From positions 1 through 64,000 of the forward strand of contig JAPOVK010000050.1 in assembly GCA_026708185.1 (NCBI GenBank): a stretch of 64,000 bases of DNA, in the 5' to 3' direction. Under the pieces are notes generated by a model. The model ran no database searches. It was not told the DNA's origin and was given only the letters and a program-made list of their open reading frames with translations. Positions 31,063 through 39,979 of the stretch are shown here, piece by piece; positions within the stretch are counted from its first letter, which is position 1; every line of letters begins with the position of its first letter. The position numbers were made by a program, and so were the translations under genes. Source of the DNA: Gammaproteobacteria bacterium. GTDB lineage: Bacteria > Pseudomonadota > Gammaproteobacteria > Pseudomonadales > Azotimanducaceae.

Positions 31063-32667
31063 ATGCGACGTGCCGTGCCTGTGTTGCTTCTTGTGCTGTT
31101 GGTCGCGTGCCGGGCGGAGGAGGCCCAGCCGGAGGTGCAGCCCGAGGCGGCGGATCCGAATGTCGCGGCGACCACGTCCGGGCCGGTGCGCGGTGAAACC
31201 GTCGACGGCGTACGCGTCTTCCGCGGCATCCCCTATGCGTCGCCGCCGGTCGGGGACTTGCGCTGGAAACCGCCCGCTCCGACGACCGCCTGGAGCGAGC
31301 CGCGCGACGCACTGGATTTCGGGACGCCCTGTTGGCAGCCGCGGCTCGAAGGCTTCTACAGCCGGGGCCCAATCGATCGATCCGAGGATTGCCTGTACCT
31401 CAACGTCTGGACGCGGGCCGCCGCAGGCGACGCGCTGCCGGTGATGGTGTGGATTCACGGCGGCGCCCTGCAGATCGGCCACGGTCACCTGCCGATGTAC
31501 GACGGCGGGGCGCTCACCGAAAAGGGCGTCGTGCTGGTCAGCATCAACTACCGACTTGGCGTGATGGGCTTCCTCGCCCACGAGGAGTTGTCCGCCGAAT
31601 CTCCGGAAGGCGCGTCCGGGAACTACGGCATCCTCGATCAGATCGCGGCACTCTCCTGGGTCCGCGACAACATCGCGGCGTTCGGCGGGGATCCCGGCAA
31701 CGTCACCGTGTTCGGCGAGTCGGCGGGCTCCTGGAGCGTCTGCTTGCTCTACGCGTCGCCGCTCGCGGGCGGCCTCGTGCATCGTGCGATCGGTCAGTCG
31801 GGAGGCTGCTTCGCGCCGTATCCGGCACTTGCGGCCGACACGCCGGCCGGACCGTCGGGCCATGCCGTTGGCGCATCGCTTGCCGAAGCCCTGTCCGTCG
31901 AGGACCTGGCGGGGCTGCGGGCCATCGAGGCGGCGGCGCTGTACGAGAAGATCGCCGAGGCCGAGTGGACCGCCAGCGGCCTGGTTTTCGTGGACGGTCA
32001 CCTGCTCCCGGCGGAACCCCGGGCTCTGGTCGAGGCAGGACGGAACAATCGGATCCCGGTGATGGTCGGCTCCAATGCCCACGAGGGGACGACGCTGTTC
32101 GCAGGCATGGGCGAAGTTGACGAAGCGACGTACCAGGCGGGCGTCGAGCAGGCCTGGGGCGATCTCGCCGGCGAGATTCTCGACGCCTACGCCGAAGACG
32201 CTGCGGTCAGCCCCGACACCGCGCAACGCCGGATCCTCTCCGACCAGTACTTCGCCTGGCAGATGCGAGCGTGGGCGCGTGCCCAGACCGCGCAGGGCGA
32301 CCCGGCATGGCTGTACTACTTCTCCCACGTACCGGACCTTGGCGGCGAGTACGGAACCTCGATGGGCGCGTTCCACGCGGCCGAGATTCCGTACGCGTTC
32401 GGCAATCCGACACTGGGTTTCGGCGACGGCGGGGACGAGTTGTCGACCCGGGCCAGCGATCTCGAGGTGACCCGCCTGATGACGGGTTACTGGACCAACT
32501 TCGCGAAAACGGGCGACCCCAACGGCGAAGGTCTGCCGCCGTGGCCGCGGTACGCGGCGGACACCGACCTCACGCTGGAGATCTCGGCGACCCCGCGCGA
32601 GATCGCGGGGTTGCGCAAGGCCAAGCTCGACATCATGGATCGCTTCTACGCCGTTGAGGACGAGTAG
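31063..32667 (+). CDS. Type-B carboxylesterase, lipoprotein
   Basis: 534 residues from ATG 31063 (AAGGGGAG upstream). Lipobox 'LLLVLLVAC' predicts a lipid-anchored periplasmic enzyme. Nucleophile elbow 'VFGESAGSWSV', oxyanion loop 'VWIHGGALQIG', catalytic Glu in 'SNAHEGTTLF' and His in 'GAFHAAEIPYAFG' are all present. 'GVRVFRGIPYASPPVGDLRWKPP' and 'SEDCLYLNVW' are family signatures. Strong paralogue of the enzyme at 38033, sharing long blocks such as 'VRDNIAAFGGDP.NVT.FGESAGS'. Convergent with the ankyrin-hydrolase gene 14 bp away. Confidence 0.94.
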   Translation: MRRAVPVLLLVLLVACRAEEAQPEVQPEAADPNVAATTSGPVRGETVDGVRVFRGIPYASPPVGDLRWKPPAPTTAWSEPRDALDFGTPCWQPRLEGFYSRGPIDRSEDCLYLNVWTRAAAGDALPVMVWIHGGALQIGHGHLPMYDGGALTEKGVVLVSINYRLGVMGFLAHEELSAESPEGASGNYGILDQIAALSWVRDNIAAFGGDPGNVTVFGESAGSWSVCLLYASPLAGGLVHRAIGQSGGCFAPYPALAADTPAGPSGHAVGASLAEALSVEDLAGLRAIEAAALYEKIAEAEWTASGLVFVDGHLLPAEPRALVEAGRNNRIPVMVGSNAHEGTTLFAGMGEVDEATYQAGVEQAWGDLAGEILDAYAEDAAVSPDTAQRRILSDQYFAWQMRAWARAQTAQGDPAWLYYFSHVPDLGGEYGTSMGAFHAAEIPYAFGNPTLGFGDGGDELSTRASDLEVTRLMTGYWTNFAKTGDPNGEGLPPWPRYAADTDLTLEISATPREIAGLRKAKLDIMDRFYAVEDE

Positions 32668-32680
32668 GGCACCGGCCTAG

Positions 32681-34504
32681 TCACTCCGGCTCGAAGCCTA
32701 TTTCGGCAAGACGCCGGATGTGGACATTGGCCGTCCGCGCATCGCGGGCCGCGGCTTCGGAATCGACGAACGGCTCTTCCTCGGCGCAGTAGTGGCCGGC
32801 CCGGACCGGAGCGCTGTAGGTTTCATCGAGCAGGGTGTGAAACCAGATGCGCAGCACGTGCCTCTCGAGGATGCTGGTTCGGCCGTACTCCAGTTGCTGA
32901 ACCAGGAACGGGAACACCTCGAAGAACTCGGGGTCGTACAAGGCAGCGAACACGGCCCGTAGGAGGCGCGCACCGGTGAGTTCAAGGCGCTCGACGTAGT
33001 GGTAGGAGAGAATCTCCAGACCGGTCAGGACGAGCGGATCCTCATCGAAACGGCGAACGAGCTCCCAGAAACGGGGCCGAAGGGAGTCCGCGTCGCACAC
33101 ACCGATGCGCGAGCAGTGGTCGAAGGCCCGTTCCAAGGCTCGATGCATGTCCCCGGCGTGCGTTTCGGCGCCGGGCAGACCGGGGAAGGCCGCTGCGGCC
33201 AGCACCATGGCTTCGACGCTCACCGGAAAGTCGCGCCCGACGGTCAGCGCGTACCGAGCGGCGTACGAGTGGCCCAAGAGCACCCACTGCTTGACTCCGA
33301 GCGCGCGCCGCAGGGCTTCGACGTCCGCGGCGATGGTGCCGCTGTTGTAGTTCTCGAGGTTCCGTCCCTCGGTGTCGAGCCGCGTCTTGCACGCGCGGTA
33401 GGCGGTGCTCCGCACCATGGCGTCCTCGCGCGCAGGGAGCCTTTTGGACAGCCCTTCGCGCAAGCGATCGACGTCATGCCGGCAGTGCAGTCTGGGGTAT
33501 GACATGCCGGTGCCGCGCGGGTCGATAACGTAGAGGTCGCGGCCGGAACCCTGGGCGAGGGCACGGTAGGTGGACCAGATCCAGTAAGGGTCCCGATCGA
33601 AGTCCATGGCGCGACCGGGGCCGCCTGCACCGAGGTGGAGAATAGGGTTGTCCTGCGGCGCTGCGCCACGCGCGCGGAAGCGGACCACGGGAAAGCCTAC
33701 GAGGGGACTCGCGCCGTCGTCGGGATTCTCGTTGACGACGAAGTAGTAGCACGCCTTCGGAGGCCAGGCCCGTTCGTGCTCGAACCAGCACGCGACCTGA
33801 TGCAATCCCGTGCGCGTCCATTGGAGGTCATCGGTTAGAGACCCGTCCGGCAGGTGGAGGCGCAGGATCTCGCCGGCGACGCCCGGGGCGCTGCCCCACA
33901 TGGTCGCGGTTGTCAACGCTGGCCAGCCGTGCGAGGTCCGTCTGCGGGGGTCGGCACCGACTTCGACGAGGGCACGCACCATCGCCGGGGAGTTGTCTCG
34001 GGTGGCGACGTGGAGCGGTGTCCATCCGCTGTCGTCGGCGGCGTTGGGGTCTGCGCCTGCCGCGGCGAGAGCGGCGACCACGTGGGAGGAGTCGGCTTGG
34101 CTTGCGGCGTAGTGAAACGCTGTCCACCCGTCGTCGTCCGCAGCGTTGGGATCCGCGCCAGCCTCGGCCAGCGCGGCGATGACTTGCGCAGGGCGATCGT
34201 TGCCAGCCGCGATGCTGAGCGGGGATGCCACATCATCCCCGACGGCATCCGGGTCCGCCCCCGCCGCAACGAGCATCGCGAACACGTCGAGCGCGTCGGC
34301 GAACTGCGCCGCGTGGTGGAGCGGGGCCCAGCCATCCTCGTCGGGGGACGCGGGGTCTGCACCAGCGGCCAGGCATCGCTGTAGCGTTTCGAGCGATGCC
34401 GATTGGAAGAACGCGGGGGTGTTCCAATCCTCGCACGCGGACTGCCCGCCTGCGGACTGTAGTGGAAGCAGGAGCAGGAACGTCGCGCAAGCGCGGCCAT
34501 TCAT
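32681..34504 (-). CDS. Exported ankyrin-repeat / alpha-beta hydrolase fusion
   Basis: 607 residues with signal peptide 'MNGRACATFLLLLPLQSAGG'. About four and a half ankyrin repeats ('DGWAPLHHAAQFADALDVFAMLVAAGADPDA', '..DGWTAFHYAAS..', '..SGWTPLHVATR..') occupy roughly residues 55-205. The rest is a prolyl-aminopeptidase/TAP-like hydrolase: oxyanion 'LGAGGPGRAMDF', 'LYVIDPRGTGMSYPRLHC', and nucleophile 'WVLLGHSYAARYALT'. The chain ends at 'YCAEEEPFVDSEAAARDARTANVHIRRLAEIGFEPE', before the usual 'GxxDPVTP' Asp and final His, so the C-terminal catalytic part seems absent. Either a truncated enzyme or a binding protein. Confidence 0.85.
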   Translation of the reverse strand: MNGRACATFLLLLPLQSAGGQSACEDWNTPAFFQSASLETLQRCLAAGADPASPDEDGWAPLHHAAQFADALDVFAMLVAAGADPDAVGDDVASPLSIAAGNDRPAQVIAALAEAGADPNAADDDGWTAFHYAASQADSSHVVAALAAAGADPNAADDSGWTPLHVATRDNSPAMVRALVEVGADPRRRTSHGWPALTTATMWGSAPGVAGEILRLHLPDGSLTDDLQWTRTGLHQVACWFEHERAWPPKACYYFVVNENPDDGASPLVGFPVVRFRARGAAPQDNPILHLGAGGPGRAMDFDRDPYWIWSTYRALAQGSGRDLYVIDPRGTGMSYPRLHCRHDVDRLREGLSKRLPAREDAMVRSTAYRACKTRLDTEGRNLENYNSGTIAADVEALRRALGVKQWVLLGHSYAARYALTVGRDFPVSVEAMVLAAAAFPGLPGAETHAGDMHRALERAFDHCSRIGVCDADSLRPRFWELVRRFDEDPLVLTGLEILSYHYVERLELTGARLLRAVFAALYDPEFFEVFPFLVQQLEYGRTSILERHVLRIWFHTLLDETYSAPVRAGHYCAEEEPFVDSEAAARDARTANVHIRRLAEIGFEPE

Positions 34505-37394: not shown

Positions 37395-37913
37395 TCACCG
37401 CTTCAGTCGAGGCCGGCCCATGAAGTCGCCCTTGCCGATGGGCGTGCCCTTCATGCGCAGCATGTCGTAGGTCGTGGTGGCGTGGAAGTAGAAGTTCGGC
37501 AGCGAGAAGGTCAGCAGGAAGTCCTCGGCGTTGAAGGGCATCACCATCTGTCCCATCCGGAACTCCATGGCCTTGCCCGCAAAGCCGTTCACCGTGTCCG
37601 CGTCGTAGGCCGCGAGCCCTTCGCGCGCCTCCGTCACCATGCCGCGCAACCCTGCATAGTCGAAGTCGTTCATGCTCGGCGGTCCGAAAACGCCGGCCTC
37701 GACGCCCTTGAGCGCACCGAGCGAGTGGTGCGTGACGGAAATCACCTGGAACCGGAATGGCAGCATGTCGTCGATGAGGCGCATCTCGACCACGCTGTCG
37801 AGGTCGATGCCGTTGGCCTCGCAGTGGGCGCGGCCCTTGTCGAGTACGCCTTCGACCGCGGGGAGGATTTGCTGAAAGGTGCCGACGGTTGCGTCGTAGA
37901 GAGAGAATGCCAT
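37395..37913 (-). CDS. DUF1993-family protein
   Basis: 172 residues from ATG 37913; upstream frame is unsupported. 'MAFSLYDATVGTFQQILPAVEGVLDKGRAHCEANGID' and 'LPNFYFHATTTYDMLRMKGTPIGKGDFMG' match the DUF1993 layout, a DinB-like four-helix bundle of unknown activity. Two His residues ('VTHHSLGAL', 'NFYFHATT') could bind metal as in DinB relatives. No signal peptide. Confidence 0.88.
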   Translation of the reverse strand: MAFSLYDATVGTFQQILPAVEGVLDKGRAHCEANGIDLDSVVEMRLIDDMLPFRFQVISVTHHSLGALKGVEAGVFGPPSMNDFDYAGLRGMVTEAREGLAAYDADTVNGFAGKAMEFRMGQMVMPFNAEDFLLTFSLPNFYFHATTTYDMLRMKGTPIGKGDFMGRPRLKR

Positions 37914-38032: not shown

Positions 38033-39979
38033 ATGAAAGCCTTGAAGATCCTTGTGATTCTGGTGCTGGCGTACGTCCTGGTCGTCGCGCTCTTCGAGTC
38101 GTTGCTCGGCTACTTCCAGCCGCAGGCACCGGGGACGGTGGTCATCACGACGTTCGATACCGACGGCGGGGCGCACGATCGCGTGGTCTCGGAACTGGAG
38201 AGCGACGGCAAGATGTATGTCGCGGTGAACCATTGGCCGCGCGCCTGGTATCGGCGCCTGCGGGACGTTCAGATGGTGCGCGTCACGCGGGACGGCGAGA
38301 CGGGGGAATACACCGCGGTGGTCGTCGACGGCGAAGAGCACGACCAGGTGGCGGCGGACAATCCCACGGGCCCCGTGTTCCGCATCCTCACCGGGTTCCC
38401 GCCGCGGTATTTCGTGCGCCTTGACCCGATGGCACCGCCGCTTGACGAGGTGGTCGAAACCGCCTACGGCAAGGTTCGCGGCGCGTTCACGGACGGCACG
38501 CAGGATGGCGCGGTCTTGGCGTACAAGGGAATCCCGTTCGCCGCGCCGCCGGTCGGCGACTTGCGCTGGAAACCGCCGGCACCGCCAGCGCCATGGGAAG
38601 GAGAGCGGGACGCCACCGAGTTCGGTGCGTCATGCCACCAGGCGCCCGCCGCTGACGAGGGTTTCTACGCCCAGCCCGATCTCACCGAGAGCGAGGACTG
38701 CCTCTTCCTGAACGTCTGGGCGCCGGAAGGCCACGTCGATGCTGGGTTCCCGGTGATGGTCTGGATCTACGGCGGCGGTTTCATGGTCGGTTCCTCGAGC
38801 CTGCCGCTTTACGACGGCGAGGCGCTGGCGCGCGCCGGCGTCGTGGTTGTGACCGTCAACTACCGTCTGGGACTGCTCGGCTTCTTCGCCCATCCCGCTC
38901 TGAGCGCCGAGTCGCCGAACGGCGCATCCGGCAACCAGGGCCTCTACGACCAGGTGGCCGCGCTCCAATGGGTGCGCGACAACATCGCCGCGTTCGGCGG
39001 CGATCCCTCGAACGTGACCATCTTCGGCGAGTCGGCTGGATCGATTAGCGTCTGCTACCTGGCCGCGACGCCGCTCGCGGACGGCCTCTTCCAGAAGGCG
39101 ATCGGCCAATCCGGTGGCTGTTTCGCGAGGCACGCTTCGCTGACCAGCACTGAAGGTGTCGTGGTGGACGGCGCGGTGCCCAACCAGCTCGCCGGCTCGG
39201 GCCACGAGATCGGGCTTCAGCTCGCCGCCGCGCTGGGTGCACAAGGCGAGGGGGCCGAGGCCATCGCCGCATTGCGGGAACTGGATGCCGCGACGATGAT
39301 CGGGACGCTCCAGGACGCGGAGGTCGTGGCGCCATGGCGCTCGATCTTCGTCGACGGCCATATGTTCCCGGACCAGATGCGGCGTCTCATGGAAGGCAAG
39401 AAGGGCGTCGCCTACATCCTGGGATCGACCGCCGACGAGGGCACGGCGCTGTTCATGGGGCTGCCTGAAACGTCGCTCGAAGACTGGCAGTCGGGGATTC
39501 GCGAAGCCCAGGGCGAGCACGCGGAGTTGTTTCTCGCGGCCTACGCGGACGACGCAGACGCTTCCCCGTCAAGGGCGACGCAGAACATCATGGGGGACGC
39601 CTTGTTCACCTGGGAGATGCGCACCTGGGCGCGCCTGGCGACCGCGGCCGGCAGCCGCGCCTACCTGTACGTGTTCAACCACGCGCCGGAGGTCGAGGAG
39701 TACGGCCAGTCGCTCGGCGCATTCCACGGATCCGAGATCGCCTACATCTTCGGCAACGGCAGCGACCTGTGGGGCGACACGGACCGAGAACTCTCGGCGA
39801 CGATGCAGGCCTACTGGGTGAATTTCGCGCGGGGCTGGGATCCGAACGGCGACGGGCTCCCGACGTGGCCGGTCTACGGGGACGACGATCTCACGTTCGA
39901 ACTGGACGCCGATCCACAGCCGCTTGCAGCCTTCCGCAACGCCAAGCTCGACGCGCACGAGGCCGCATTGGCGTTCTAG
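38033..39979 (+). CDS. DUF385-like nitroreductase domain fused to type-B carboxylesterase
   Basis: 648 residues. N-terminal membrane anchor 'LKILVILVLAYVLVVALFESLLGYF'. Residues ~33-130 ('TTFDTDGGAHDRVVSELESDGKMYVAVNHWPRAWYRRLRDVQMVRVTRDG...GFPPRYFVRLDP') resemble the F420-dependent nitroreductase/DUF385 split-barrel family. From ~140 it is a full carboxylesterase: 'VWIYGGGFMVGSS', 'IFGESAGSISV', Glu in 'STADEGTALF', His in 'GAFHGSEIAYIFG'. Paralogue of the enzyme at 31063. The fusion would place a deazaflavin or flavin-type domain and an esterase together on the periplasmic side of the membrane. Frame is continuous across the junction. Confidence 0.9.
   Translation: MKALKILVILVLAYVLVVALFESLLGYFQPQAPGTVVITTFDTDGGAHDRVVSELESDGKMYVAVNHWPRAWYRRLRDVQMVRVTRDGETGEYTAVVVDGEEHDQVAADNPTGPVFRILTGFPPRYFVRLDPMAPPLDEVVETAYGKVRGAFTDGTQDGAVLAYKGIPFAAPPVGDLRWKPPAPPAPWEGERDATEFGASCHQAPAADEGFYAQPDLTESEDCLFLNVWAPEGHVDAGFPVMVWIYGGGFMVGSSSLPLYDGEALARAGVVVVTVNYRLGLLGFFAHPALSAESPNGASGNQGLYDQVAALQWVRDNIAAFGGDPSNVTIFGESAGSISVCYLAATPLADGLFQKAIGQSGGCFARHASLTSTEGVVVDGAVPNQLAGSGHEIGLQLAAALGAQGEGAEAIAALRELDAATMIGTLQDAEVVAPWRSIFVDGHMFPDQMRRLMEGKKGVAYILGSTADEGTALFMGLPETSLEDWQSGIREAQGEHAELFLAAYADDADASPSRATQNIMGDALFTWEMRTWARLATAAGSRAYLYVFNHAPEVEEYGQSLGAFHGSEIAYIFGNGSDLWGDTDRELSATMQAYWVNFARGWDPNGDGLPTWPVYGDDDLTFELDADPQPLAAFRNAKLDAHEAALAF

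Follow-up and report, generated by a model that had tools for sequence, protein, structure and literature searches.

The window, meaning the whole stretch of DNA that was analysed, is 64,000 nucleotides long. Here, one gene runs in a single unbroken frame from an ATG start codon to a TAG stop codon, and joins a split-barrel domain behind a hydrophobic N-terminal segment to a type-B carboxylesterase (Table 1). A transmembrane anchor, one continuous frame, and a complete esterase were all part of the original prediction, and all three agree with the analysis that follows.

Table 1. Coordinates of the fusion gene, its parts, and two other genes of the window.
Feature	Positions	Strand	Evidence or remark
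Fusion ORF, 648 aa	38033..39979	+	Same ORF in sister genome G007 (L003), 91% identical
N-terminal transmembrane helix, residues 2-28	38036..38116	+	Helix in model; hydropathy, charges
Split-barrel (FDOR-A/DUF385-like) domain, residues 33-132	38129..38428	+	Profile to PDB, Pfam tally, AlphaFold2, Foldseek
NHWPRAWY signature, residues 66-73	38228..38251	+	N66-R70 and W72 invariant in 58 sequences
Fusion junction and linker, residues 133-143	38429..38461	+	Stand-alone homologues end here (FVRLDP plus 0-12 aa)
Type-B carboxylesterase domain (PF00135), residues 139-629	38447..39919	+	COesterase PF00135, E=1e-113
Catalytic Ser334 codon (GESAG)	39032..39034	+	Motif
Predicted catalytic Glu469 codon	39437..39439	+	Motif
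Predicted catalytic His565 codon	39725..39727	+	Motif
Paralogous lipoprotein esterase, lipobox LVAC, Cys16 codon at 31108	31063..32667	+	50-53% identical to fused esterase
Divergent neighbour, DUF1993 protein	37395..37913	-	Marks ancestral locus

The N-terminal segment is helical in the model and contains the only long hydrophobic stretch in the protein, with a Kyte-Doolittle mean of 2.94 for the 19 residues that begin at position 3 (the next best region reaches 1.6). Lys2 and Lys5 lie on the N-terminal side of this helix, for a predicted topology of N-in, C-out. By this distribution of charge, the split barrel should face the periplasm. The protein has no lipobox; its first cysteine does not come before residue 201.

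The esterase half matches PF00135 over its full length (381.5 bits against a cut-off of 27, positions 3-501 of a profile of 515). With a Ser334/Glu469/His565 triad and a GGGF oxyanion motif at residue 247, all assigned by motif, it is a predicted complete type-B esterase. It shares these three features (full-length domain, triad, oxyanion motif) with p-nitrobenzyl esterase (1qe3) and with fumonisin B1 esterase (8s6d, E=4e-90), its nearest relative among solved structures. Unlike these, it has no signal peptide or lipobox of its own, and would be tethered via the split barrel.

A paralogous esterase in the same window does have the lipobox that was claimed for it; its start is exactly at 31063. 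This protein, the lipoprotein esterases of two other genomes (G053 and G243), and the fused esterase belong to one esterase family, but the lipoproteins are anchored by the lipobox cysteine and lack a split barrel. In the tree, the fused esterase groups as sister to the G053/G243 lipoprotein esterase (about 60% identical, support 98/95), and its derivation from the neighbouring paralogue was rejected on this ground. On the minus strand, positions 32681-34504 hold a 607-aa frame in which ankyrin-like repeats at the N-terminal end and an alpha/beta-hydrolase-like C-terminal part (GHSYA) were read by eye; the frame has no match in the otherwise syntenic region (L032) of the sister genome.

Identity of the split barrel and the question of F420

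The fused domain, taken alone, reaches no Pfam family, and its match to TIGR00026, the model for deazaflavin-dependent nitroreductases, is weak (24.7 bits, cut-off 46.35). Its relatives, 22 out of 26, match PF04075, again weakly; the cut-off of 22 is exceeded by L005 (23.2 bits) and by a sulfatase fusion described below (28.2 bits). A profile of the family brings up Ddn/FDOR structures first when compared with the PDB (3r5z, E=6e-5). The AlphaFold2 model of the barrel (mean pLDDT 84) likewise finds this F420-bound FDOR-A structure as its best Foldseek match (E=2.4e-6, TM about 0.54). Because the relatives, the profile, and the predicted structure point the same way, the DUF385-like call is good: the fused barrel is a distant, diverged relative of the FDOR-A/PF04075 (DUF385) fold. 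Some relatives also match DUF2255 (PF10012)/PNPOx-like split barrels weakly, below the curated cut-off. The original prediction described such domains as stand-alone or mycobacterial in type. The first part holds. The second is too narrow, as the group is centred in the gammaproteobacteria and is membrane-anchored.

The FDOR-A proteins of the PF04075 family (F420H2_quin_red) include Ddn (Rv3547; 3r5z, 3r5r, 7kl8), with which the fused domain shares the split-barrel fold and the equivalents of Trp88 and Ala76. In Ddn, the tail of F420 is contacted by R54, T56, and R60, its phosphate lies near K79, and W88, A76, and Y133 hold the remainder of the cofactor (PMC3267046). A profile alignment of 58 members of the fused-domain family places D42, D44, and H48, the commonest residues at these positions, opposite R54, T56, and R60, and an invariant H67 opposite K79. 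Thus, where Ddn has a basic groove for the tail and phosphate (R54, R60, K79), this family has D42, H48, and H67, and only three of the 58 sequences have lysine or arginine anywhere in positions 41-44. W88 corresponds to an invariant W72, and A76 to a nearly invariant A64.

The family differs from Ddn in other ways as well. It carries an N-terminal membrane helix and is predicted to face the periplasm. An acidic D-x-D-G replaces G-R-K-T-G, and the loop from K79 to W88 is about four residues shorter, reduced to NHWPRAW. The tyrosines of helix D are not recognisable, and the domain in the window falls below curated cut-offs.

The cell itself is not short of the cofactor. The CofD/CofE genes for F420 biosynthesis are in the same genome (G000:C27:40069-41597), and CofE is found in 196 of the 207 genomes of the family, in all 37 genera. 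This distribution suggests that F420 is a core trait in these uncultured gammaproteobacteria. Cofactor supply is therefore no obstacle in the cell; co-occurrence of the domain with F420 biosynthesis, of course, is uninformative as a clue when CofE is nearly universal. The contig that carries CofD/CofE also carries a separate, canonical FDOR-A with GNKTG and SQGGAPKNPVW. Because this protein keeps the motif, while in the fused domain the tail residues are mostly acidic, K79 is histidine, and the loop is shorter, binding of F420 by the fused domain is doubtful. The view that the N-terminal domain is an F420 reductase fares poorly on the same grounds.

Stand-alone relatives and repeated joining

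Of the 207 genomes in the bacterial family to which the window belongs, 146 have the split-barrel domain. The homologues that were read out are mostly stand-alone proteins of 133-144 amino acids, whose stop codon lies at the fusion point; among the matches listed, fused forms occur only in the window, G007, G033, and G015. G103 and G205 have long open frames that were considered as further fusions, but these proved to be stand-alone genes with read-through upstream. One stand-alone gene is split into two frames (L129:5594-6002, G002:C705), through either a frameshift or a sequencing error in the MAG.

Elsewhere in the genus, the stand-alone gene is likewise divergent from the DUF1993 gene. Its neighbours show no esterase link of the kind seen in the fusion. 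A tally of immediate neighbours, with genes called by a longest-ORF heuristic, finds DUF1993, GDPD, and GDSL lipase genes most often (four each), and no conserved context.

The genome that contains the window has one close copy of the domain, the fused one. The sole other match is a transmembrane-anchored, DUF2255-like paralogue, about 25% identical. This paralogue is flanked by two alpha/beta-hydrolase genes of the same strand, their ends overlapping or abutting (L002:430-2750, G000:C1). As a recurrent context the arrangement was rejected: none of the 11 relatives that have the paralogue keep it.

Searching other genomes for the same architecture, as the original prediction proposed, finds it not only in the sister genome G007. 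An Acidobacteria-labelled MAG (L106, PAUN01000061.1) has a barrel-esterase fusion of its own; the hypothesis that this and the window's fusion go back to one ancient event, which would place the two in one clade, is rejected (p-AU 5.9e-5). In G015, the barrel is fused to a sulfatase (592 aa; L040:9320-11098, G015:C1:~110820; PF00884, E=4e-56), and in G033 to a DUF3047 protein (471 aa; L020:767-2182, the same as L069, G033:C156). Most simply, barrel and partner were joined on four separate occasions. The barrel-esterase fusion is a new domain architecture made from known parts, and our search of the literature found no paper on it.

The stand-alone form suggests how the fusion may have arisen. 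A small gene at the ancestral locus, for a split barrel anchored in the inner membrane and facing the periplasm, would have lost its stop codon and continued into an esterase gene that lay downstream. Because the closest relatives of the esterase that are not fused are either lipoproteins or secreted proteins, the anchored barrel protein would here have supplanted an export signal of one of these two kinds.

Weighing the readings

Two genes wrongly joined, by assembly or by gene calling, would also give such a frame. In the family, of course, stand-alone genes are the norm, and the sequences look like MAGs. The sister genome G007 (contig JAPOYV010000047.1, a MAG labelled COS4_bin_44), however, has the fusion in the same gene order, again with 648 amino acids and 89%/91% identical. 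At 88% nucleotide identity between the two, purifying selection acts on both sides of the junction. With a second, independent esterase fusion in L106, an artefact of this kind, which the original prediction had named as its refutation, is extremely improbable.

The original prediction went further, and proposed that an F420- or FMN-dependent reductase domain and the esterase act in two steps to detoxify aromatic esters. The FDOR-A fold, the retained counterparts of Trp88 and Ala76, and an organism and family equipped with CofE (the organism with CofD as well) are all compatible with this, and an F420 protein exported by the Tat pathway is known (PMC3478262). The plain transmembrane anchor of the fusion, however, implies Sec export, and so presumably export without a folded cofactor. 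The residues that replace those binding the tail and phosphate in Ddn (PMC3267046), when the genome's own canonical FDOR-A keeps its motifs, also count against the proposal, as does the lack of such esterase neighbours around the stand-alone forms. Further, a single specific two-step reaction would not be expected when the partner differs by lineage (esterase, sulfatase, DUF3047). Thus, the two-step proposal is very unlikely to be correct. A wider version, in which a periplasmic, anchored FDOR-like family uses an extracytoplasmic cofactor and on repeated occasions became covalently linked to envelope hydrolases (esterase, sulfatase), coupling redox chemistry with hydrolysis at the inner membrane, is a long shot too.

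At the other extreme, the barrel might serve in the fusion as a membrane anchor only, its ancestral function unused. The replacement of an export signal in the fusion speaks for this, and both fused sisters have lost N79 and P80, the only residues missing from the 43 columns with the highest conservation in the stand-alone forms. Between window and sister, dN/dS (NG86) is slightly higher in the barrel (about 0.16) than in the esterase (about 0.10). Yet a value near 0.16 still indicates purifying selection, within or just above the range for pairs of stand-alone genes (0.08-0.16). Nor has the fusion given up any of the invariant signature residues (NHWPR, W72, G121-F122, R125, R129), and the genome has no second close copy of the domain. 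These points make a mere anchor unlikely, if less so than the redox readings.

Because the fused barrel is the only close copy in its genome and purifying selection continues, it most likely keeps its original job. The reading that we favour, and consider probable, is thus one of tethering: the barrel would retain its own role, probably binding a small cofactor or an amphipathic ligand at the membrane surface, and the esterase, held by it at the periplasmic face of the inner membrane, would hydrolyse periplasmic esters independently. The observations behind this reading are the architecture, the orthologous stand-alone form, the missing lipobox, conservation in the sister, purifying selection, and recurrence with other enzymes; from these we infer the order of events, the topology, the tethering, the independence of the two activities, and the nature of the barrel's ligand.

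Some points pull the other way. Topology and tethering are predictions, and the model of the full-length fusion (mean pLDDT 59 in the esterase half) is too poor for judging how the domains pack. That the barrel was fused twice, separately, to one esterase family may point to some functional connection with ester hydrolysis. So may the DUF2255-like paralogue between its two hydrolase genes, although its relatives do not keep that arrangement. The loss of N79 and P80 makes some change in the function of the barrel possible.

The fusion itself is of modest interest. What deserves biochemistry is the widespread and apparently uncharacterised family of membrane-anchored split barrels to which it belongs, in an uncultured gammaproteobacterial family that has the genes for F420 biosynthesis. 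The invariant NHWPRAW signature sets these barrels apart from their F420-binding relatives, and their repeated fusions to unrelated hydrolases are natural constructs with which the location and the role of the barrel may be tested.
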